Part shown: in pieces, positions 41,832-53,072 of the stretch
Layout of the letters: each line of letters starts with the position of its first letter
Numbering within the stretch: the first letter of the stretch is position 1
Assembly (NCBI RefSeq): GCF_002218025.2
Contig: NZ_AP018680.1
Coordinates: forward strand, 1,984,001-2,048,000
From: Vibrio casei
GTDB taxonomy: Bacteria > Pseudomonadota > Gammaproteobacteria > Enterobacterales > Vibrionaceae
Length of the DNA stretch: 64,000 bases
Direction: 5' to 3'
Translations under genes and position numbers: made by a program
The notes under the pieces: model-generated
The model's database searches: none
Told to the model about the DNA's origin: nothing
Seen by the model: the letters and a program-made list of their open reading frames with translations, nothing else

Positions 41832-43304
41832 TTATTTTCTTATAAAGGGTTCAAAACAATCTAGAGAATAAGATTGTCTCATGAGATCATAGGCCTGCTG
41901 AATGTCGATAGCAATAGGATGGTTCTCTTCATAGAATTTCACTTTATTTCTTAACTGACACCAAGCAACCCCAGTACCATTTCCAAATGGTTTATCTTCA
42001 ATAAGATCAAAAGCCTGAGAGGCCGACAAATATTCAATAGCTAATATATAAAAAACGTTGCTCACAGCTCTATGTAATTGTAATGCTGAGGTTTCACCAA
42101 AACTTAAATGATCCTCTTGCATTCCAGAGGTTAAATAATTTTCAATGACACAGGGTTGGGCTAATTTTTTTGTATCACAAGCAAGTGACGCAGCACTATA
42201 TTGAGCAATCATCAAGCCAGATTTAACACCACTTTCAGGTGTTAAAAATGCGGGTAAATAACTAGTATGTGGAGTGACTAATCTAAAAACTCTCCGCTCA
42301 CTGATCGCCCCCCATTCGCTTACTGCAATCGATAACATATCACACGCCATCGCGACGGACTCACCGTGTGGATTAGCTTGAGAAACGACTCTATAATTGT
42401 CATTGTCATAAATAACAATAGGATTATCAGAAACTGAATTTAATTCGTTTTGTATTTGCTGAGCGGCTACAGATAATTGATCTCGGCAAGCACCATGAAC
42501 CTGAGGAATAGATCGAACACTTAACGCATCTTGTAAATGCCTACCTAGATTAGAAGAAACAACACCACTACCTTCAAGCAAACTTCGAACATTTCGGCCA
42601 GTGGTTTGCATTCCTTTATGTTTCTTCTTACCAAGAACAGATGCATCAAATGCAGTTAGTTGCCCTGATAATGCCTCAACACTCATTGCCGAGACAATGT
42701 CAGCCCAGTCAGCTAACTGGGTAACCGCATCCAATTCAAGGCAAGCTAATCCTGTCATTGCCACAGTTCCATTCACTATACATAGGCCATCTTTAGCGCC
42801 CAATTGGACAGGTTCGATGCCACGTTGAAAATAAACCTCTTTCGTAGGTAGAGTATCCCCCTCATGATTCACTTCACCCTCCCCTATTAATGACAAACCA
42901 ATATGAGCCATATGACTAAGGTAACCAACAGAACCCGCTGAAGGTACAACTGGAGTAATATCATTATTTAAAAGGTAAATGAGGCGCTTAACCACCGAAG
43001 GGTTTACACCAGAACAGCCATGGCTAAAATTAATTACCGCGCAGCACATGATAGCTCTAACCTGCTCTGTTTTTAAGGGCTCACCAACCCCTGCAGCATG
43101 GCTCATTAAGGTATACCATGAAAGCTTCTGTAACTGAGAAGAATCTAAGGCCACGTGACACAAAGCACCTAAACCAGTATTAATTCCATAATGTGGTATA
43201 CCAGAATTTGCAATGGACTCTACTACCGATCGGGTATTTTTGATCCCTTGCCAAATATCATCAGAAAGATACAACTTAGATTTTTTCTTAGCAACATCCA
43301 CCAC
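41832..43304 (-). CDS. HAL/PAL-family lyase homologue lacking the MIO triad; candidate ergothionase/hercynine trimethylamine-lyase
   Basis: A 490-residue member of the aromatic ammonia-lyase superfamily, distinct from HutH at 51516. It keeps Tyr39 in YGINTG, VNGT at 177-180, SDNP at 292-295 and QED at 396-398. Where HutH reads [14 protein letters not shown], this protein reads GSVG-YLSHMAH (124-134): spacing to the next GEG shows a clean loss of the three residues that cyclise into MIO. The loop tyrosine of QDPYSLR is Leu261 (QDALSVR), while the arginine stays. Ergothionase is a known superfamily member that eliminates trimethylamine, a far better leaving group than ammonia. Start is GTG with a weak ribosome site, so the N-terminus is uncertain. 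It follows the BCCT gene by 49 bp, behind a HutC box. Substrate is inferred; a pseudoenzyme is the alternative. Confidence 0.75.
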   Translation of the reverse strand: MVDVAKKKSKLYLSDDIWQGIKNTRSVVESIANSGIPHYGINTGLGALCHVALDSSQLQKLSWYTLMSHAAGVGEPLKTEQVRAIMCCAVINFSHGCSGVNPSVVKRLIYLLNNDITPVVPSAGSVGYLSHMAHIGLSLIGEGEVNHEGDTLPTKEVYFQRGIEPVQLGAKDGLCIVNGTVAMTGLACLELDAVTQLADWADIVSAMSVEALSGQLTAFDASVLGKKKHKGMQTTGRNVRSLLEGSGVVSSNLGRHLQDALSVRSIPQVHGACRDQLSVAAQQIQNELNSVSDNPIVIYDNDNYRVVSQANPHGESVAMACDMLSIAVSEWGAISERRVFRLVTPHTSYLPAFLTPESGVKSGLMIAQYSAASLACDTKKLAQPCVIENYLTSGMQEDHLSFGETSALQLHRAVSNVFYILAIEYLSASQAFDLIEDKPFGNGTGVAWCQLRNKVKFYEENHPIAIDIQQAYDLMRQSYSLDCFEPFIRK

Positions 43305-43353
43305 ATTAATCTATTTCCACTCATCCCCATTAAAATAAGTATCAGAAATAGAA

Positions 43354-44931
43354 TTACTCATTAATCCATTCTCCTTGAGTTGACTTACTTTTTTGTTTAT
43401 CACTAGGATCAATAATGAGAATCCGTATGCTTGCCATTACAATCAAAACAAATAAAAATAAAACCGTAAAACCACCCGCTGCGGCTAAATATTTGATCCC
43501 ATCCACTCCCTGAGCCCCTCCAGCAAAGGCAACCATAATATAAGCAATCACACTGATCGCTACACCCCAAATGATTTTCAGTGCTTTGGGCGACTCCTCT
43601 TCTGCTGTTATGTCTTTGGTACAAATAGAAGCTATCGTTGAAGACATTGAATCCGCAGAGGTTGCAAATGAAATAATCAAAGTAAAAATAGCAAGAGGAA
43701 CTAAAATCACTGATAAAGGCAGATGTTGCAAAAATCCCCACAGACCAGAAACCGCACCATTTTCTTTAATAATCCCTACCAAATCTAACGCCCCCGTTAG
43801 CTGCCAATTAATAGCAGCACCACCCCATATTGCAAACAATGTAATACCAAAAACAGACGGTAATACCCAGTTAATCAAAAGAAACTCACGAATAGTTCGA
43901 CCATAAGAAATTCGAGCAAGAAATAACCCCATTAATGGTGCATAAGCAATCCAAATAGACCAATCATACATTGTCCACCATGTAACCAAAGCCTCTCCGC
44001 CAGACTCTTTAGTATCAAAAGACCAACGGAAAAAATGATCAAGCCAGTAACCAATACTGGTTGTGGAAAGGTTTAAAATATAACTAATAGGTCCTATCGC
44101 AAAGATGACGAGAACAAAAGTATAAAAAATATAAGCGTTAATTGAAGAAAGAAACTGGATTCCTTTTTGTAAACCAGATACAGCTGATGTGATAAAAATT
44201 AAGCCAATAACAACAGTTAATCCTAGCCATACCATAGGAGAAGAAGGGAGCCCATATTCAGATTCAATCCCAGAACTAATCAAAGTTAAACCCGCGCCAA
44301 GCGACGATGCCAAACCTAATGCAATAGCCAGCACTGAAATAACATCCACCAAAGAGCGAACAAAAATACTTTTTTCATGTTTGCCCAGAATAGGAATCAA
44401 TGTTGAAGAAATCGCAAATGGTTTCTTTTTGTTGTAATGCATATACCCAATCATCAACCCTACAATCGAATACATCGCATAAGGAATAAAGCTCCAATTA
44501 TGAAATGAACGGGCCAAGGCGAATACAGCCGACTCTCCTGAACCGGCTGTAAAATTTTGATTCGCAATTTCTCCATAAATATTACCTACATAAATAATAG
44601 GTTCATTCACTGAATAGGTCACAATCCCTGTTGCAATTCCCCCAGTCAATGCCATAGCAAAATTTGATGCTAGAGAAAATTTAGGCTTAGCTTCACTACC
44701 TCCTAAACGGATCCTTCCAACATCGGAACAAAAAACATAAATAATCACCCCAAGCGTCGTAACTGCAAGTAATTGATATAACCACGCAAAGTCAGAAAGA
44801 GAAAAATAGAAAATATCTTTCGCTACAGCCACCAGCATTTCATTGTTAAATAACCCAAGCAATACAGAAATAAGAACAACACCAGCAGCTGGTATAAATA
44901 CGCTCATTTTTAAACTTTTATTGTTACTCAT
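43354..44931 (-). CDS. BCCT-family (betaine/carnitine/choline) transporter
   Basis: A 525-residue membrane protein with about 12 hydrophobic segments. The BCCT signature is visible as WTMYDWSIWIAYAPLMGLFLARISYGRTIREF (about residues 320-350), and the TM3 glycine-rich stretch ending in NEP (GGIATGIVTYSVNEP) matches the usual G-rich...EP motif in divergent form. The ATG at 44929-44931 is preceded by AAGGAATGATC. The family carries trimethylammonium compounds. The downstream partner is a histidine-lyase homologue and a HutC box lies 60 bp upstream, so a histidine betaine (hercynine, ergothioneine) is the inferred substrate. Could instead be a carnitine or glycine-betaine carrier. Confidence 0.88.
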   Translation of the reverse strand: MSNNKSLKMSVFIPAAGVVLISVLLGLFNNEMLVAVAKDIFYFSLSDFAWLYQLLAVTTLGVIIYVFCSDVGRIRLGGSEAKPKFSLASNFAMALTGGIATGIVTYSVNEPIIYVGNIYGEIANQNFTAGSGESAVFALARSFHNWSFIPYAMYSIVGLMIGYMHYNKKKPFAISSTLIPILGKHEKSIFVRSLVDVISVLAIALGLASSLGAGLTLISSGIESEYGLPSSPMVWLGLTVVIGLIFITSAVSGLQKGIQFLSSINAYIFYTFVLVIFAIGPISYILNLSTTSIGYWLDHFFRWSFDTKESGGEALVTWWTMYDWSIWIAYAPLMGLFLARISYGRTIREFLLINWVLPSVFGITLFAIWGGAAINWQLTGALDLVGIIKENGAVSGLWGFLQHLPLSVILVPLAIFTLIISFATSADSMSSTIASICTKDITAEEESPKALKIIWGVAISVIAYIMVAFAGGAQGVDGIKYLAAAGGFTVLFLFVLIVMASIRILIIDPSDKQKSKSTQGEWINE

Positions 44932-44990
44932 GATCATTCCTTAACCATTTACTCTATGCATATTTATAAAAACACATCTCATACAATAAA

Positions 44991-45000
44991 TGTATATACA
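44991..45000. promoter_or_regulatory. HutC-type operator upstream of the BCCT/lyase unit
   Basis: TGTATATACA, perfect palindrome (extended ATGTATATACAT), 60 bp ahead of the BCCT start. Identical to the three other copies in this cluster and close to known HutC targets (TGTATATACA-like cores) in Klebsiella and Pseudomonas. Confidence 0.8.
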
Positions 45001-45095
45001 TAAAGGAAACATTTCCATAACATGTGTGTAATTAGTTTTAAAAGAAGAGTATCGCTCACAAAACAATCAGTAATTGAGACATTTATCACCTTAAA

Positions 45096-45211: not shown

Positions 45212-45919
45212 GTGGCTCAAAACATTCCAAGATATAAACAGATCAAGCAGCATATTCTCGAACGCATACGTAACAATGAATACCCATTGAATCACAAGAT
45301 CCCAACCGAGAACGATCTCGCCAACCAATTTCAAGTCAGTCGAATGACTGCGCACAAAGCGATCCGTGATTTGGTTCAAGAAGGTTATTTAGTTCGTAAG
45401 GCTGGTTTAGGTTCCTTTGTCGTCGAACCAAAAGCCGAATCACCTTTGACAGGGGTGAATAATATTGCGGATGAAATTACAAGCCGTGGGCATCAATACC
45501 ACTGCGATATTTTAAAATTAGAAGAAATACTTGCAGATGATGAAATTGCTTTGCAAATGGGAATGCGACTGGGAGTATTGGTATTCCATTCCTTAATCAT
45601 TCACTATCAAGACGATACTCCTATCCAAGTTGAGGAACGTTTTGTCAACCCATTACTAGCACCGTCTTATTTAGAAAATGATTTTGAATCTGTCACTCCG
45701 AATGCATTTTTAGTGAAACATTGCCCATTGTCCGATCTTGAGCATACCGTTGAAGCAAGCTTTGCTCCAAAGCAAGTTTGTCAATGGCTAGCAATGGAGC
45801 AGACGATGCCTTGTTTACTTGTCACAAGACGAACATGGTCACAACAACAGCTAGTCAGCTTTGCTCGATTATGGCATCCAGCTGATAAATATAAGCTACG
45901 TTCTGCAATTAAGCTTTAA
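45212..45919 (+). CDS. hutC: histidine utilisation repressor HutC (GntR family)
   Basis: 235 residues: N-terminal GntR winged helix (about 5-70, RYKQIKQHILERI; ENDLANQFQVSRMTAHKAIRDLVQEGYL) and a C-terminal UTRA ligand domain (about 90-230, with VEERFVNPLLAPSYLENDF). HutC proteins repress hut genes and release DNA on binding urocanate. The start is a GTG at 45212 with GGGGG upstream. Divergent from the BCCT gene and convergent with yjiH; four TGTATATACA boxes surround the cluster. Confidence 0.94.
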   Translation: MAQNIPRYKQIKQHILERIRNNEYPLNHKIPTENDLANQFQVSRMTAHKAIRDLVQEGYLVRKAGLGSFVVEPKAESPLTGVNNIADEITSRGHQYHCDILKLEEILADDEIALQMGMRLGVLVFHSLIIHYQDDTPIQVEERFVNPLLAPSYLENDFESVTPNAFLVKHCPLSDLEHTVEASFAPKQVCQWLAMEQTMPCLLVTRRTWSQQQLVSFARLWHPADKYKLRSAIKL

Positions 45920-45992: not shown

Positions 45993-47302
45993 TTAAGGCG
46001 CTATTAACATTCCGACGGGAATGGCTAAAGCAAGACTTAAGAAAGCACGTATAAACCACACCCAAACCAAGGTACTAATTTTTAAAGGTATTTTTGTTGA
46101 TAAAATGCATGGGATTGATGCAGAAAAGAACAAAACAGACGAAACACTCACCACACCCGCGGCAAAACGAGCCACAAAATCAGCCTCTGTCATCAATAAG
46201 GCTGGCAAAAACATTTCAGCTAATCCGGAAGCGGTAGCTTTGGCCAATAACATGCCTTGGTCAACATTGTAGACCCAAGTAATCGGATAAAACACATAAC
46301 CAATGATATCAAAGGCCATTGTGTATTTTGCCACCAGTAAACCAATCAATCCAACCGACATAATAGAAGGTAAAATACTGATGGTCATAATCAAACCATC
46401 TTTTAAATTTTCAAAAACACTTTGCGCTAATGGTGGAGATTTTCGAGCCACTTCCATTCCTTCTTGCCACGCAGTTTTCAAACGACTTCCCGCTTGGCCT
46501 TCTGGCTCGTGAAATTCAGAATGGTCATCCATGTTAGATAATGGTGGTAAACGAACGGTAATGGCCGTCACAATAAAAGTGATCACTAAAGTCAGCCAAA
46601 AGTAGGCATTCCAAACAGACATCAAATCGAGTGTTTTTGCTACTATGATCATAAAAGTGGCAGAAACAGTAGAAAATCCTGTTGCAATAATAGCCGCTTC
46701 CTTGGCGGAATAATAACCAGAAACATAAACACGGTTAGTGATAAGTAATCCGATTGAATAACTTCCCACAAAAGAGGCTACCGCATCAATAGCGGATCTC
46801 CCTGGCGTTTTCCAAACTGGACGCATCATCTTTTGTACTAATATTCCAATGCATTCAAGTAACCCATAACTGACCAAAAAGGCTAAAAAAACCGCACCTA
46901 TTGGCACTATCAAGCCAACAGAAACCACCAATTTATTAAACAAAAATGGGAGCATTCCTGGTTCCTGCAAAGCAACGGGGCCTAATTTAGTGATCGCTAA
47001 AATCGCTGCTACTAAACCTAGCCATTTCAACACCAAAAATACTTTTGATGTTGTACTATTACGCCACTCTCCTGTTACCAATGGATAGATCGCACCGGCC
47101 GCCACCATAACAACAGCGTAAACATTCACCCCTGTTGAACCTAATAAAGACTTCAAAAAAGTCACCATATGATCTAACGGTATACTCGTTATCCCACTAA
47201 TATTAATAGGGATGAAAAAAATGAAGATCCCTATTGCACTAAAAAAATCATGCGAAATGCCGACTTAACATCAAAACGTTGCTTCAAGCTTACTTGCTGC
47301 AT
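45993..47302 (-). CDS. YjiH-family nucleoside-recognition membrane protein, frameshifted near the 5' end
   Basis: A polytopic membrane protein with the Gate/nucleoside-recognition fold (YjiH family), often found with hut genes; substrate unknown. The intact-looking part runs from 47168 to 45993 (391 residues, MVTFLKSLLG). A better start is the ATG at 47300-47302, preceded by AAGGAG: MQQVSLKQRFDVKSAFRMIF reads into a T7 run (47241-47247) and hits TAG at 47231-47233. Adding one T restores FSAIGIFIFFIPINISG...IPLDHMVTFL, the expected first membrane segment, giving about 436 residues. So there is a one-base deletion, a slippage site, or a sequencing error. A HutC box lies 31 bp upstream of the ATG. 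Confidence 0.8.
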
Positions 47303-47332
47303 ATTGACTACTCCTTGTTCAATCACTTTTAA

Positions 47333-47342
47333 TGTATATACA
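47333..47342. promoter_or_regulatory. HutC-type operator upstream of the YjiH gene
   Basis: TGTATATACA, 31 bp upstream of the inferred YjiH start (47302) in the divergent yjiH-hutI gap, so well placed to block its promoter. Confidence 0.8.
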
Positions 47343-47446
47343 TATGGTATTAATTGTTATTAATGTGTTTCATATATGTGATCTAATTCATAATGTTCAT
47401 CATGAACCCTATCTTTAACTTGTATATCCAAAGAAAAAAAACTATT

Positions 47447-47456
47447 TGTATATACA
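47447..47456. promoter_or_regulatory. HutC-type operator upstream of hutI
   Basis: TGTATATACA, 38 bp ahead of the hutI start, 114 bp from the box at 47333. A one-mismatch copy (TGTATATCCA) lies at 47421-47430. Confidence 0.82.
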
Positions 47457-47493
47457 TTGATTATGCAATGCTAGATTGGTAATGGAGAAGACT

Positions 47494-48690
47494 GTGAAAA
47501 CGACATGGATCAACGCCCGAATCTTTGACGGTGATCGGGAATTACCCGAACTAATGGCACTGACAATTCAAGATTCTTTAATTTTGAATTTGATTCCAAT
47601 GAGCCAAATTTCAAAGGCGTCATTCTCGACCTCCTCTGACACTCTAATTGATCTTCAAGGTCTACTGATCACACCAGGGTTGATCGATAGCCACACTCAC
47701 CTAGTCTTTGCGGGTAATCGCGCTAATGAGTTTGCTGCTCGTTTGGAAGGGAAAACCTACGCCGAGATAGCGACGCAAGGCGGTGGAATAATGAGCACGG
47801 TCAAAGCTACACGTGAAGCCAGCGAAGAACGGTTATTAGCGTTGGCTCAACAACGCCTTAATTGTTTTATCGCCGAAGGCGTAACGAGCATTGAAATAAA
47901 ATCAGGTTATGGATTAGATGTTGATAGTGAACTTAAACTACTACGCGTAGCTCGAAAGCTTGCTGAAAATAATCCTATTCGCATACAAACAACATTACTG
48001 GGCGCTCATGCCTTACCTCCTGAATTTAAAAATGCGCCTGATGACTACATCGACCTCGTCTGCGAGACAATGATTCCACAGGCCGCCGATCTCGGTTTAG
48101 CCGATGCCGTAGATGTATTTTGTGAAGGCGTAGGATTTACAGTAGCTCAATGTCAAAAAATTTATCAAGCAGCAGCAAAACATGGTCTTGCGATTAAAGC
48201 CCATACAGAACAATTGTCTAACTTATCGGGTAGCCAAGCAGCCGCCGAAGCTGGAGCATTGTCGGTTGACCATATCGAATACTTAGATGAACAAGGCATT
48301 AAAGCCATGGCGCAACATGGCACAGTCGCCACATTACTTCCCGGTGCGTTTTATATTTTAAAAGAAACACAAAAACCTCCAGTGGCGCTATTACGCCAAT
48401 ACCAAGTTCCAATGGCGATTGCCAGTGATGCCAACCCCGGAACCTCCCCCATAATGAGTTTGCGCTTAATGTTAAATATGGCGTGTACCCTCTTTGAACT
48501 TACCCCAAATGAGGCCTTACAAGGCGTGACGAGCAACGCAGCACAAGCTCTGGGTCTTGCTCAAATCACTGGAACAATAAAACCCGGCATGCAAGCGGAT
48601 TTATGTATTTGGGATACCACCACCTCAGCCGAACTATCTTATTCCATTGGTTTGCCAACGCTAAAACAGCGTATTTTTGCAGGGAAATAA
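47494..48690 (+). CDS. hutI: imidazolonepropionase
   Basis: HutI opens imidazolonepropionate to formiminoglutamate, third step of histidine breakdown. I chose the GTG at 47494 ([13 protein letters not shown]) because GGAGAAG lies just ahead; an ATG at 47482 and a TTG at 47476 are in frame but lack a site. 398 residues, amidohydrolase fold: metal ligands [12 protein letters not shown] (His67, His69), [23 protein letters not shown] and SDANPGTSP. First gene of hutIGUH behind a HutC box; its end overlaps the hutG ribosome site. Confidence 0.96.
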
Positions 48691-48691
48691 T

Positions 48692-49657
48692 ATGTCTAAT
48701 CAAGACTTATCTTCAAATTATCAAGAGAAAAGAGAATTTCAATGGGCAGGGCGAATAGATCCTGAAGCCAATAGCTTACGTTGGCATCAAGTTATTAAAC
48801 CAGTTATTTCAGCTGCTGAAAACGGTTATGCTCTCATTGGTTTTTGTTGTGATCTGGGCGTGTCGCAAAACAAAGGAAGAATTGGGGCGGCACTTGCGCC
48901 CAATGCTATTCGCCAAGCTCTGGCTAACTTATCTTATATTCAAAAAAAACCGTTATATGATGCAGGAAATGTTCATTGCTTAGCTAATCAACTCGACCAG
49001 GCTCAAGCTGAACTGGGTAACCAAGTTCAAACGCATCTAGAAAGTGGTCATTTCCCTATTATTTTAGGTGGTGGCCATGAGGTGGCTTATGGTTCATGGT
49101 TGGGCTTTAGTCAATATCTTCAAGCTCAGCATTCAAAAATAGCGCCTAAAGTGGGCATCATAAATTTTGATGCTCATTTTGATTTACGCGATTCGAGCCA
49201 TGTCCACTCTTCAGGTACACCCTTTCATCAAATCGCTTATCAAAGTAAAGCGCTGAACTGGCCATTTCATTATGCTTGTTTAGGCGTGAGCCAAGCTTCT
49301 AACACTCAAGCCTTATTTAATACCGCTGATTCCTTGGGTGTATTAGCCATTCAAGACCATTTAATGACTACCCATAACTTATTCCAAATAATGACTCAAA
49401 TTACTGAATTTATTGATCAATGTGATCACATTTATCTCACTGTCGATATGGATGTTTTTCCAAGTTCACAAGCTCCGGGCGTTAGCGCACCAGCCGCATG
49501 TGGCGTAGGCATTGAAATTATCGAGCCTTTACTTCGACATATAAAAGCGACGCAGAAATTGCGTTTATTTGATATTGCCGAATTAAATCCAAACTTTGAT
49601 CGAGACCACCAAACGGCAAGACTCGCTGCTCGTCTCATCCACACATTAACACTGTAA
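48692..49657 (+). CDS. hutG: formimidoylglutamase
   Basis: HutG hydrolyses formiminoglutamate to glutamate and formamide. Ureohydrolase (arginase) family, 321 residues from the ATG at 48692, which is one base after the hutI stop and has AGGGAA upstream. Binuclear Mn ligands are visible in GGGHE (126-130), NFDAHFD (158-164) and TVDMDVF (250-256). Hydrolysis to formamide, not the two-step deiminase route, is therefore used here. Confidence 0.95.
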
Positions 49658-51515: not shown

Positions 51516-53072
51516 ATGAACCCATTTATTATCCAACCGGGGCAAGTATCACTCGCTCAATTACGCCATACGAGCTTCAATTCCATCACCATAGAATTGG
51601 ATAAATCCGCCGAAGCCAACATTAATGCTAGCGCTCAAGTCGTCAACACGGTGGTCCAGCAAGGACGCACCGTCTATGGCATCAATACTGGTTTTGGCCT
51701 ACTAGCAAATACAAAAATTGAAGCTAAAGATTTAGAAGTTCTACAACGAAGTATTGTGTTATCTCATGCGGCTGGTATCGGCGAACTGATGCAAGATGCA
51801 ACAGTTCGTTTAATGATGATATTAAAAATTAACAGCCTCGCTCGCGGTTTTTCTGGTATTCGCCTTGAGGTTATTAACGCGCTGATTCAATTGGTGAATA
51901 AAGAAGTCTATCCTTGTGTGCCACAAAAAGGATCTGTCGGTGCATCTGGCGATCTAGCACCATTAGCACACATGAGCACCGTATTATTAGGCGAAGGCCA
52001 AGCTCGCCATCAAGGTCATATTATTTCAGGTCAAGAAGCCTTAAAAATCGCAGGATTATCCCCAATAACCTTAGCGCCTAAAGAGGGATTAGCATTACTC
52101 AATGGTACTCAAGCATCAACGGCTTTCGCTTTAGAAGGCTTATTTGCCGCTGAAGATTTATTTGCATCCGCAACGGTGTGTGGTGCGATGTCAGTAGAAG
52201 CCGCATTAGGTAGCCGACGCCCATTTGATCATCGTATTCACCAAGTTCGTGGGCATCAAACGCAAATAGACAGTGCTGCTGCGTTTCGTCATCTATTAGG
52301 CCATGAGAGTGGTATTGGTCACTCTCATGAAAACTGTGAGAAAGTTCAGGATCCATATTCATTACGCTGCCAACCACAGGTAATGGGAGCTTGTCTTGAG
52401 CAAATTCGTAATGCCGCCAAAGTGATTGAAATTGAATCCAATGCCGTTTCAGATAATCCATTGGTTTTTATTAATGAAGATAACATGGAAGACAACGACA
52501 TTATCTCGGGTGGAAATTTCCATGCAGAACCAATTGCAATGGCGGCGGATAACCTCGCCTTAGCGATTGCTGAAATAGGCAGCTTATCAGAACGTCGTAT
52601 GGCACTACTCATCGATTCAGCACTCAGTAAACTACCGCCATTTTTAGTCAATAATGGCGGTGTTAACTCAGGATTTATGATCGCTCAAGTGACAGCAGCA
52701 GCGTTAGCCAGTGAAAATAAAACATTCGCTCACCCTGCATCTATAGACAGTTTACCCACCTCAGCGAACCAAGAAGATCATGTTTCAATGGCGACATTTG
52801 CCGCTCGTCGGTTAAGAGATATGAGCACCAATACTCGTGGGATTTTAGCTGTTGAATACTTAGCCGCTGCACAGGGATTAGATTTTAGAGCACCTTATCT
52901 TTCATCGCCCTCAATTGAGAAAGCAAAACAATTGCTGAGAGAAGTCGTGCCATTTTATGATAAAGACCGTTACTTCTCACCCGATATAGAAAGTGCCAAT
53001 TCATTGTTAGCACAAGGCATTCACCATGCCCTGATGCCAGTTGGTTTACTGCCCAGTATTAAGTCGATTTAA
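51516..53072 (+). CDS. hutH: histidine ammonia-lyase
   Basis: HutH removes ammonia from histidine to make urocanate. 518 residues. All catalytic parts are present: Tyr54 in YGINTGFG, the MIO triad Ala143-Ser-Gly145 in [33 protein letters not shown] with the loop tyrosine, SDNPLVF and the ANQEDHVSM glutamate. TAAGGAACATGAA holds the ribosome site. Last gene of hutIGUH, after a 122-bp structured spacer; a bidirectional terminator follows. It serves as the internal control for the MIO-less homologue at 41832-43304. Confidence 0.97.

Follow-up and report, generated by a model that had tools for sequence, protein, structure and literature searches.

The 64 kb stretch of the Vibrio casei genome analysed here (the window; the host genome measures 4.14 Mb) carries, in its histidine-utilisation (hut) region, two adjacent minus-strand genes, one for a BCCT-family transporter and the next for a lyase of the histidine ammonia-lyase (HAL) superfamily that has lost the residues of the 4-methylidene-imidazole-5-one (MIO) group; the pair is considered here as a candidate module for the use of hercynine. 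The hutC repressor gene diverges from the pair, and past a gene for a Gate-domain membrane protein follow hutI-hutG-hutU-hutH (Table 1). That lyase and transporter form an adjacent pair, as a first-pass annotation of this DNA had it, agrees with the gene order and with the longer lyase frame, which opens at an ATG and overlaps the 3' end of the BCCT gene by 8 bases; the transporter belongs to the BCCT family by its PF02028 match (394.7 bits; cut-off 27), and its TIGR00842 score of 312.5 lies under the cut-off of 407.55.

The lyase is distinguished by a shortened active-site loop. GSVG and GEG are separated by 13 residues, where the local HutH has 16, and the stretch is otherwise ungapped; exactly three residues are gone, which confirms the earlier claim that the Ala-Ser-Gly triad of MIO is absent, and the pocket residues then named (Tyr39, Asn178, Leu261, Arg264 and Glu397) are all in place. 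The protein scores below both NCBIfam hutH cut-offs (TIGR01225, 473.3 against 539.15; NF006871, 488.6 against 524), which the local HutH exceeds by far; a plain duplicated HutH is ruled out by the MIO loss. The triad is likewise missing from 120 of the 120 best database relatives listed, all of which have the QDAL motif present in the window lyase, and one Pseudomonas cluster among them represents 1326 sequences. The corresponding clade a, sampled by these 120 relatives and by 80 named loci (the best 80 of at least 556 relatives in named genomes), is mostly annotated as histidine ammonia-lyase, occurs in Pseudomonas, Halomonas, Oceanimonas and Zobellella, and includes, by gene order, the Pseudomonas hutH1. 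Its sister clade b includes proteins of Burkholderia and Paraburkholderia (120 listed, all without the triad) and of Rhizobium (L161). In the tree, clades a and b together occupy a branch of their own (100/99), and the ergothionase of Treponema denticola groups with clade d (the best 120 relatives of one query) and L178 (100/99); the ergothionase branch is long, and its exact placement is unsure. Earlier trees with a tyrosine-lyase outgroup suggested two losses of MIO, and a single MIO-less group was not rejected (p-AU, approximately unbiased test, 0.121); a later tree without this outgroup placed all MIO-less rows on one side (97/85). Since at E 1e-120 the lyase was found in only one of 227 genomes of the genus, namely the host itself, the gene was most likely acquired.

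The active-site alignment comprised 334 MIO-less rows (203 of clade a including the window lyase, six of clade b, 124 of clade d and the T. denticola ergothionase) and 67 HutH rows; the row sets overlap, and the numbering row, the Pseudomonas putida HAL mutant Y280F, was left uncounted. In HAL, Tyr53 acts as the base and Arg283 as the carboxylate anchor. Both are retained, with Gln277 and Glu414, in all 334 MIO-less rows including the ergothionase; position 280 is Leu in every one of these rows and Tyr in 67/67 HutH rows, and L178, which stands outside this alignment, has Val there. Clade a keeps Ser82, His83 and Asn195 (203/203) and Gln413 (202/203), has Pro in place of Phe329 in 198 of its 203 rows, and throughout shows a Tyr at HAL position 142, the spot where MIO began, followed by the three-residue gap; the window lyase conforms. 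The ergothionase has Ser82 and His83, with Ser at 195, Glu at 330 and Ile at 413; in clade d, Asn195 is gone from 124 of 124 rows and Arg stands at 83 in 121. The lyase and ergothionase have Leu280, Tyr53, Gln277, Arg283 and Glu414 in common, whereas Asn195, His330 and Gln413, changed in ergothionase, stay HAL-like. The roles of these residues in HAL are those given in PMC11432326; we read the clade-a site as a probable HAL-type pocket that would take an unmodified imidazole and lacks the ammonia-expelling electrophile.

Lyase neighbours were surveyed within 400 bases upstream, and carrier families were assigned by Pfam on single examples and by tblastn for the rest. At the 80 named loci, the gene immediately 5' of the lyase encodes HutV of HutXWV in 61 cases, a BCCT in 14, another ABC ATPase in three and, in L132, HutTu behind such an ABC transporter, and in L101 the contig ends; a transporter gene therefore precedes the lyase in 79/80, with betaine-type carriers in 75. 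By Pfam, the HutX of L112 is an OpuAC protein, and the nearest solved relatives of HutX are glycine-betaine-binding proteins; for L105 and L160 the binding protein is of the SBP_bac_3 family. Hut genes are present in the examined stretch of 64 loci, and 13 of the 14 BCCT loci are ordered hutU-BCCT-lyase, followed by hutH (nine) or hutI (four). The clade-b partners are HutXWV in L150 and other ABC transporters in L151-L154; none was found in L155. Carriers that are mostly of betaine type and sometimes of amino-acid type, combined with one lyase whose product would be compatible with hut, point to hercynine.

The 15 lyase-linked BCCTs examined all share three sequence motifs (Table 1) and an Asp in transmembrane helix 8. 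BetP, TmaT and an unlinked BCCT encoded by the host genome lack these motifs; the fourth comparator, a second unlinked BCCT, aligned partly, and two of the five BCCTs of the host were left out of the comparison. Aligned to the BetP positions that we take to form its aromatic box, the linked transporters have W/Y/Y/W, with residues either kept or replaced by Tyr relative to BetP. Judged by its family, the lyase-linked BCCT fits a carrier of a quaternary ammonium compound.

The pair also appears to share its control with the hut genes. The sequence TGTATATACA occurs four times in the window, at 44991 and 45096 between the BCCT gene and hutC, and at 47333 and 47447 between the Gate-domain gene and hutI; WTGTATATACAW occurs at five places in the genome against one for the reversed pattern, four of the five in these two hut intergenic regions. 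The first-pass annotation had proposed that the lyase unit carries the hut operator, and the exact sites uphold this; their genome-wide count rules out a chance origin. The fifth copy (G000:C2:353899; L159:5900), considered as the mark of a second hut-regulated gene, is probably due to chance because it lies inside a peptidase-like reading frame. With two mismatches allowed, eight sites were found in the window against 4.2 expected, a number reached in 6 of 100 shuffles; as this is not clearly significant, the operator claim relies on the exact matches. Six hut loci of the same genus without the lyase are ordered hutC-hutI-hutG-hutU-hutH, have no BCCT gene, and each carry one TGTATATACA between hutC and hutI. 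By its predicted operator the pair belongs to the HutC regulon, and induction of the entire hut cluster through the module is plausible. Fifteen Pseudomonas loci among L095-L149 are stand-alone LysR-hutXWV-lyase units with no hut genes nearby, which indicates that HutC control is not universal.

Table 1. Features of the lyase-transporter pair and the adjoining hut genes, with positions in the window.
Feature	Position	Strand	Remarks
MIO-less HAL-superfamily lyase	41832..43304	-	GTG start, 490 aa; candidate hercynine trimethylamine-lyase; Pfam PF00221
Upstream in-frame extension of lyase frame	43305..43361	-	ATG at 43361; stop codon at 43313-43311
BCCT transporter, lyase-linked subfamily	43354..44937	-	527 aa; PF02028; motifs FHNWSFIPYA, WTMYDWSIWIAYAP, GGIATG
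Operator-like palindrome ATGTATATACAT	44990..45001	n/a	5' of BCCT gene
Operator-like palindrome ATGTATATACAA	45095..45106	n/a	BCCT-hutC interval
HutC repressor	45212..45919	+	TIGR02018, 288 bits (cut-off 220)
Gate-domain membrane protein	45993..47168	-	PF07670
Operator-like palindrome	47332..47343	n/a	Interval between Gate-domain gene and hutI
Operator-like palindrome	47446..47457	n/a	Immediately 5' of hutI
HutI	47476..48690	+	Counterparts via tblastn
HutG	48677..49657	+	Counterparts via tblastn
HutU, sole urocanase detected in genome	49669..51393	+	Single PF01175 protein
HutH, ordinary MIO histidine ammonia-lyase	51516..53072	+	NF006871, 763.6 bits (cut-off 524)

Beyond the hut genes themselves, counterparts of the Gate-domain gene were found by tblastn at nine of the 14 BCCT-type loci and at L094 (54-76% identity).

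These sequence features make it rather likely that lyase and transporter constitute a hercynine-utilisation module added to the hut cluster, in which the lyase is probably a hercynine trimethylamine-lyase; that it is some MIO-free lyase yielding urocanate appears likelier still. The first-pass annotation had the pair handle either hercynine or ergothioneine. Hercynine is the best fit to the MIO loss, Leu280, the carrier family and the operator; ergothioneine is less supported, given the tree, and retention of the imidazole-site residues of HAL, Asn195 and Gln413 among them, together with the single urocanase of the genome, favours hercynine over it. In the proposed mechanism, the BCCT would import hercynine (N,N,N-trimethyl-L-histidine), and the lyase would expel trimethylamine without MIO, the conserved Tyr (HAL Tyr53) abstracting the beta proton. 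The carboxylate would be bound by Arg264 and Gln258, and, as in HAL, the imidazole and the polar groups by His69, Glu397 and Asn178, with Tyr128 and Leu261 filling the space vacated by MIO and Tyr280; the MIO electrophile and Tyr280 would be dispensable because trimethylamine, we infer, leaves readily by itself. The product urocanate would pass through HutU-HutI-HutG and lift HutC. No EgtD-family protein (PF10017), the family of hercynine synthesis, was found in the host genome. In Pseudomonas fluorescens SBW25, hutH1 is dispensable on histidine, according to PMC8871633.

Several observations weigh against hercynine as the substrate. The carrier argument is one of family membership, and HutXWV is reported to contribute to histidine uptake (PMC8871633). 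Sixteen of the 80 named loci have no hut gene in the examined stretch, namely the 15 Pseudomonas units and one Paracoccus BCCT-lyase locus; within clade a, L156 (50% identity) shows LysR but no transporter 5' of the lyase, and L157 has a different ABC transporter. The genome yielded no convincing trimethylamine mono-oxygenase, its one weak PF00743 match covering 43 of 532 positions; no search was aimed at trimethylamine dehydrogenases or methyltransferases. PMC12772324 (2025) names PA5093 hutG and reports that its deletion impairs growth on histidine and urocanate; to judge from the order HutV-lyase-HutI at the PA7 locus (L130), PA5093 could be the MIO-less lyase, and this phenotype would not fit. 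The structure model calculated from the GTG is weak at residues 121-130 and 390-400, loops at the active site, and thus precisely at the MIO-less loop and around Glu397. In the longer lyase frame, moreover, codon 17 is a stop, and the GTG start lies 6 bases past it. Finally, if the ergothionase of Burkholderia sp. HME13 sits in clade b, ergothioneine would gain as a candidate; among the best 120 proteins in each of two lists of relatives, in which names are abbreviated, none bears the name ergothionase.

An ergothionase, which would convert ergothioneine to trimethylamine and thiourocanate and leave the latter to HutU or another enzyme, is nevertheless improbable at this locus. The ergothioneine pathway uses a second, diverged urocanase for thiourocanate; none was found in the host genome, with its one PF01175 protein, whereas L178 and L187 pair an MIO-less lyase with a urocanase relative 44-45% identical to the window HutU. 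It is this difference, with the separate branch of clades a and b, that makes hercynine the preferred substrate. The residue changes of the T. denticola enzyme (Asn195 to Ser, His330 to Glu, Gln413 to Ile), where clade a retains the HAL letters, and the hut embedding of most named loci also speak against ergothioneine. From the hut embedding the product can be told more surely than the substrate, which leaves some room for an MIO-free lyase that yields urocanate from a different histidine derivative, one that likewise carries a good leaving group; amino-acid-type ABC transporters in L105 and L160 (by Pfam) and in L152 and L161 (by reading or annotation), and MFS (major facilitator superfamily) transporters in Priestia, are in keeping with it. 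We regard this as unlikely in view of the predominance of betaine-type carriers 5' of the lyase, extending to HutXWV in clade-b L150, and because plain or ring-methylated histidine would retain ammonia as a poor leaving group. A paralogue that has lost activity and serves a structural or regulatory purpose would account for the absence of MIO and Tyr280, each of which matters in HAL, but Tyr53, His83, Asn195, Gln277, Arg283 and Glu414 are invariant in 203/203 clade-a rows, unlike a decayed site, and this explanation is very improbable.

The hercynine assignment, like the ergothionase and other-derivative readings, is compatible with an active clade whose copy in the window has recently become a pseudogene, a possibility that concerns this copy only and that we take seriously while holding it to be the less likely state. 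The in-frame stop before the GTG, which the first-pass annotation missed, as it did the wide spread of the family, implies that the copy is shortened, with re-initiation at the GTG, or newly damaged, or that the sequence contains an error. A relative, P0001, is 98% identical across the 490 residues and begins 19 residues earlier, with the frame open there; this front part differs more densely between the two proteins (3/19) than the remainder does (11/490; Fisher p 0.012, a post hoc comparison), which speaks for damage. Against damage stand the other 490 codons, which are open, the position of the GTG so close behind the stop that re-initiation is plausible, and the structure model, which lacks the extension and is confident over the first 20 residues; the stop itself may be a sequencing error.

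The chances seem about even that the locus represents a widespread, unrecognised hercynine route, in which an MIO-free lyase would make hut a betaine-degrading pathway in many Proteobacteria, perhaps also on Priestia plasmids, with the lyase paired repeatedly with carriers of different types (BCCT, MFS and two kinds of ABC) and, in BCCT-type loci, a carrier that may exchange hercynine for trimethylamine. If so, the hutH1 of the well-studied Pseudomonas hut locus would have a function, histidine ammonia-lyase annotations would be corrected on a large scale, bacterial use of hercynine would be explained, and a further bacterial source of trimethylamine would be named. No paper was recognised as describing a hercynine trimethylamine-lyase or the substrate of HutH1, a weak negative since most subscription journals lay outside the search.

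Further MIO-less lyases were noted in other settings. On a Priestia megaterium plasmid (L163:6944-8482), one annotated as hutH follows hutU, hutI, a gene of the agmatinase family and two MFS transporter genes. Lyases of L160 (Burkholderia pyrrocinia plasmid pBPJTT), L161 (Rhizobium) and L162 (Erwinia) follow ABC genes with SBP_bac_3 proteins (by Pfam in L160, by annotation in L161 and L162) and adjoin a hutC or cytosine-permease-type gene. Two clade-d lyases annotated as hutH, in L164 (Rhizobium johnstonii pRL12) and L165 (Paracoccus aminophilus pAMI4), stand beside genes for a CoA-transferase, an SDR-type (short-chain dehydrogenase/reductase) dehydrogenase and MaoC, in pRL12 also with a HutC-like regulator and a glycine-betaine binding protein; at a guess, they act on another aromatic betaine such as hypaphorine. 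In L187 (8842-11984; genome of G304's family), the ergothionase-side lyase and the urocanase relative behind it have, from reading of the translations, a peptide-type ABC transporter 5' and a rhodanese-like protein 3', and the region is a candidate ergothioneine operon.

Among known systems, BetP, TmaT and CaiT belong to the same family as the lyase-linked transporter, which differs from them in an Asn and an Asp beside the aromatic box and in an altered glycine stretch. CaiT works by antiport of substrate against product; from the altered glycine stretch one might guess at a hercynine/trimethylamine exchange by the window BCCT. HutH and the window lyase have the fold and most active-site residues in common at 35-38% identity, but only HutH has Ala-Ser-Gly, and hence MIO, and Tyr280. 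Ergothionase is described as a MIO-less trimethylamine-lyase in PMC13405746, and that of T. denticola (PDB 6s7j/6s7q) resembles the window lyase in its HAL fold; its loop, however, is one residue shorter than that of HAL, where the window lyase has lost three, and the two belong to different groups of the tree. Another close counterpart is HutH1 of Pseudomonas: Pseudomonas members of the same clade have the same MIO-less loop, are 53-57% identical to the window lyase over the named hut loci and follow hutXWV within hut clusters, the arrangement that PMC8871633 describes for SBW25, so that HutXWV takes the place that the BCCT holds beside the window lyase.

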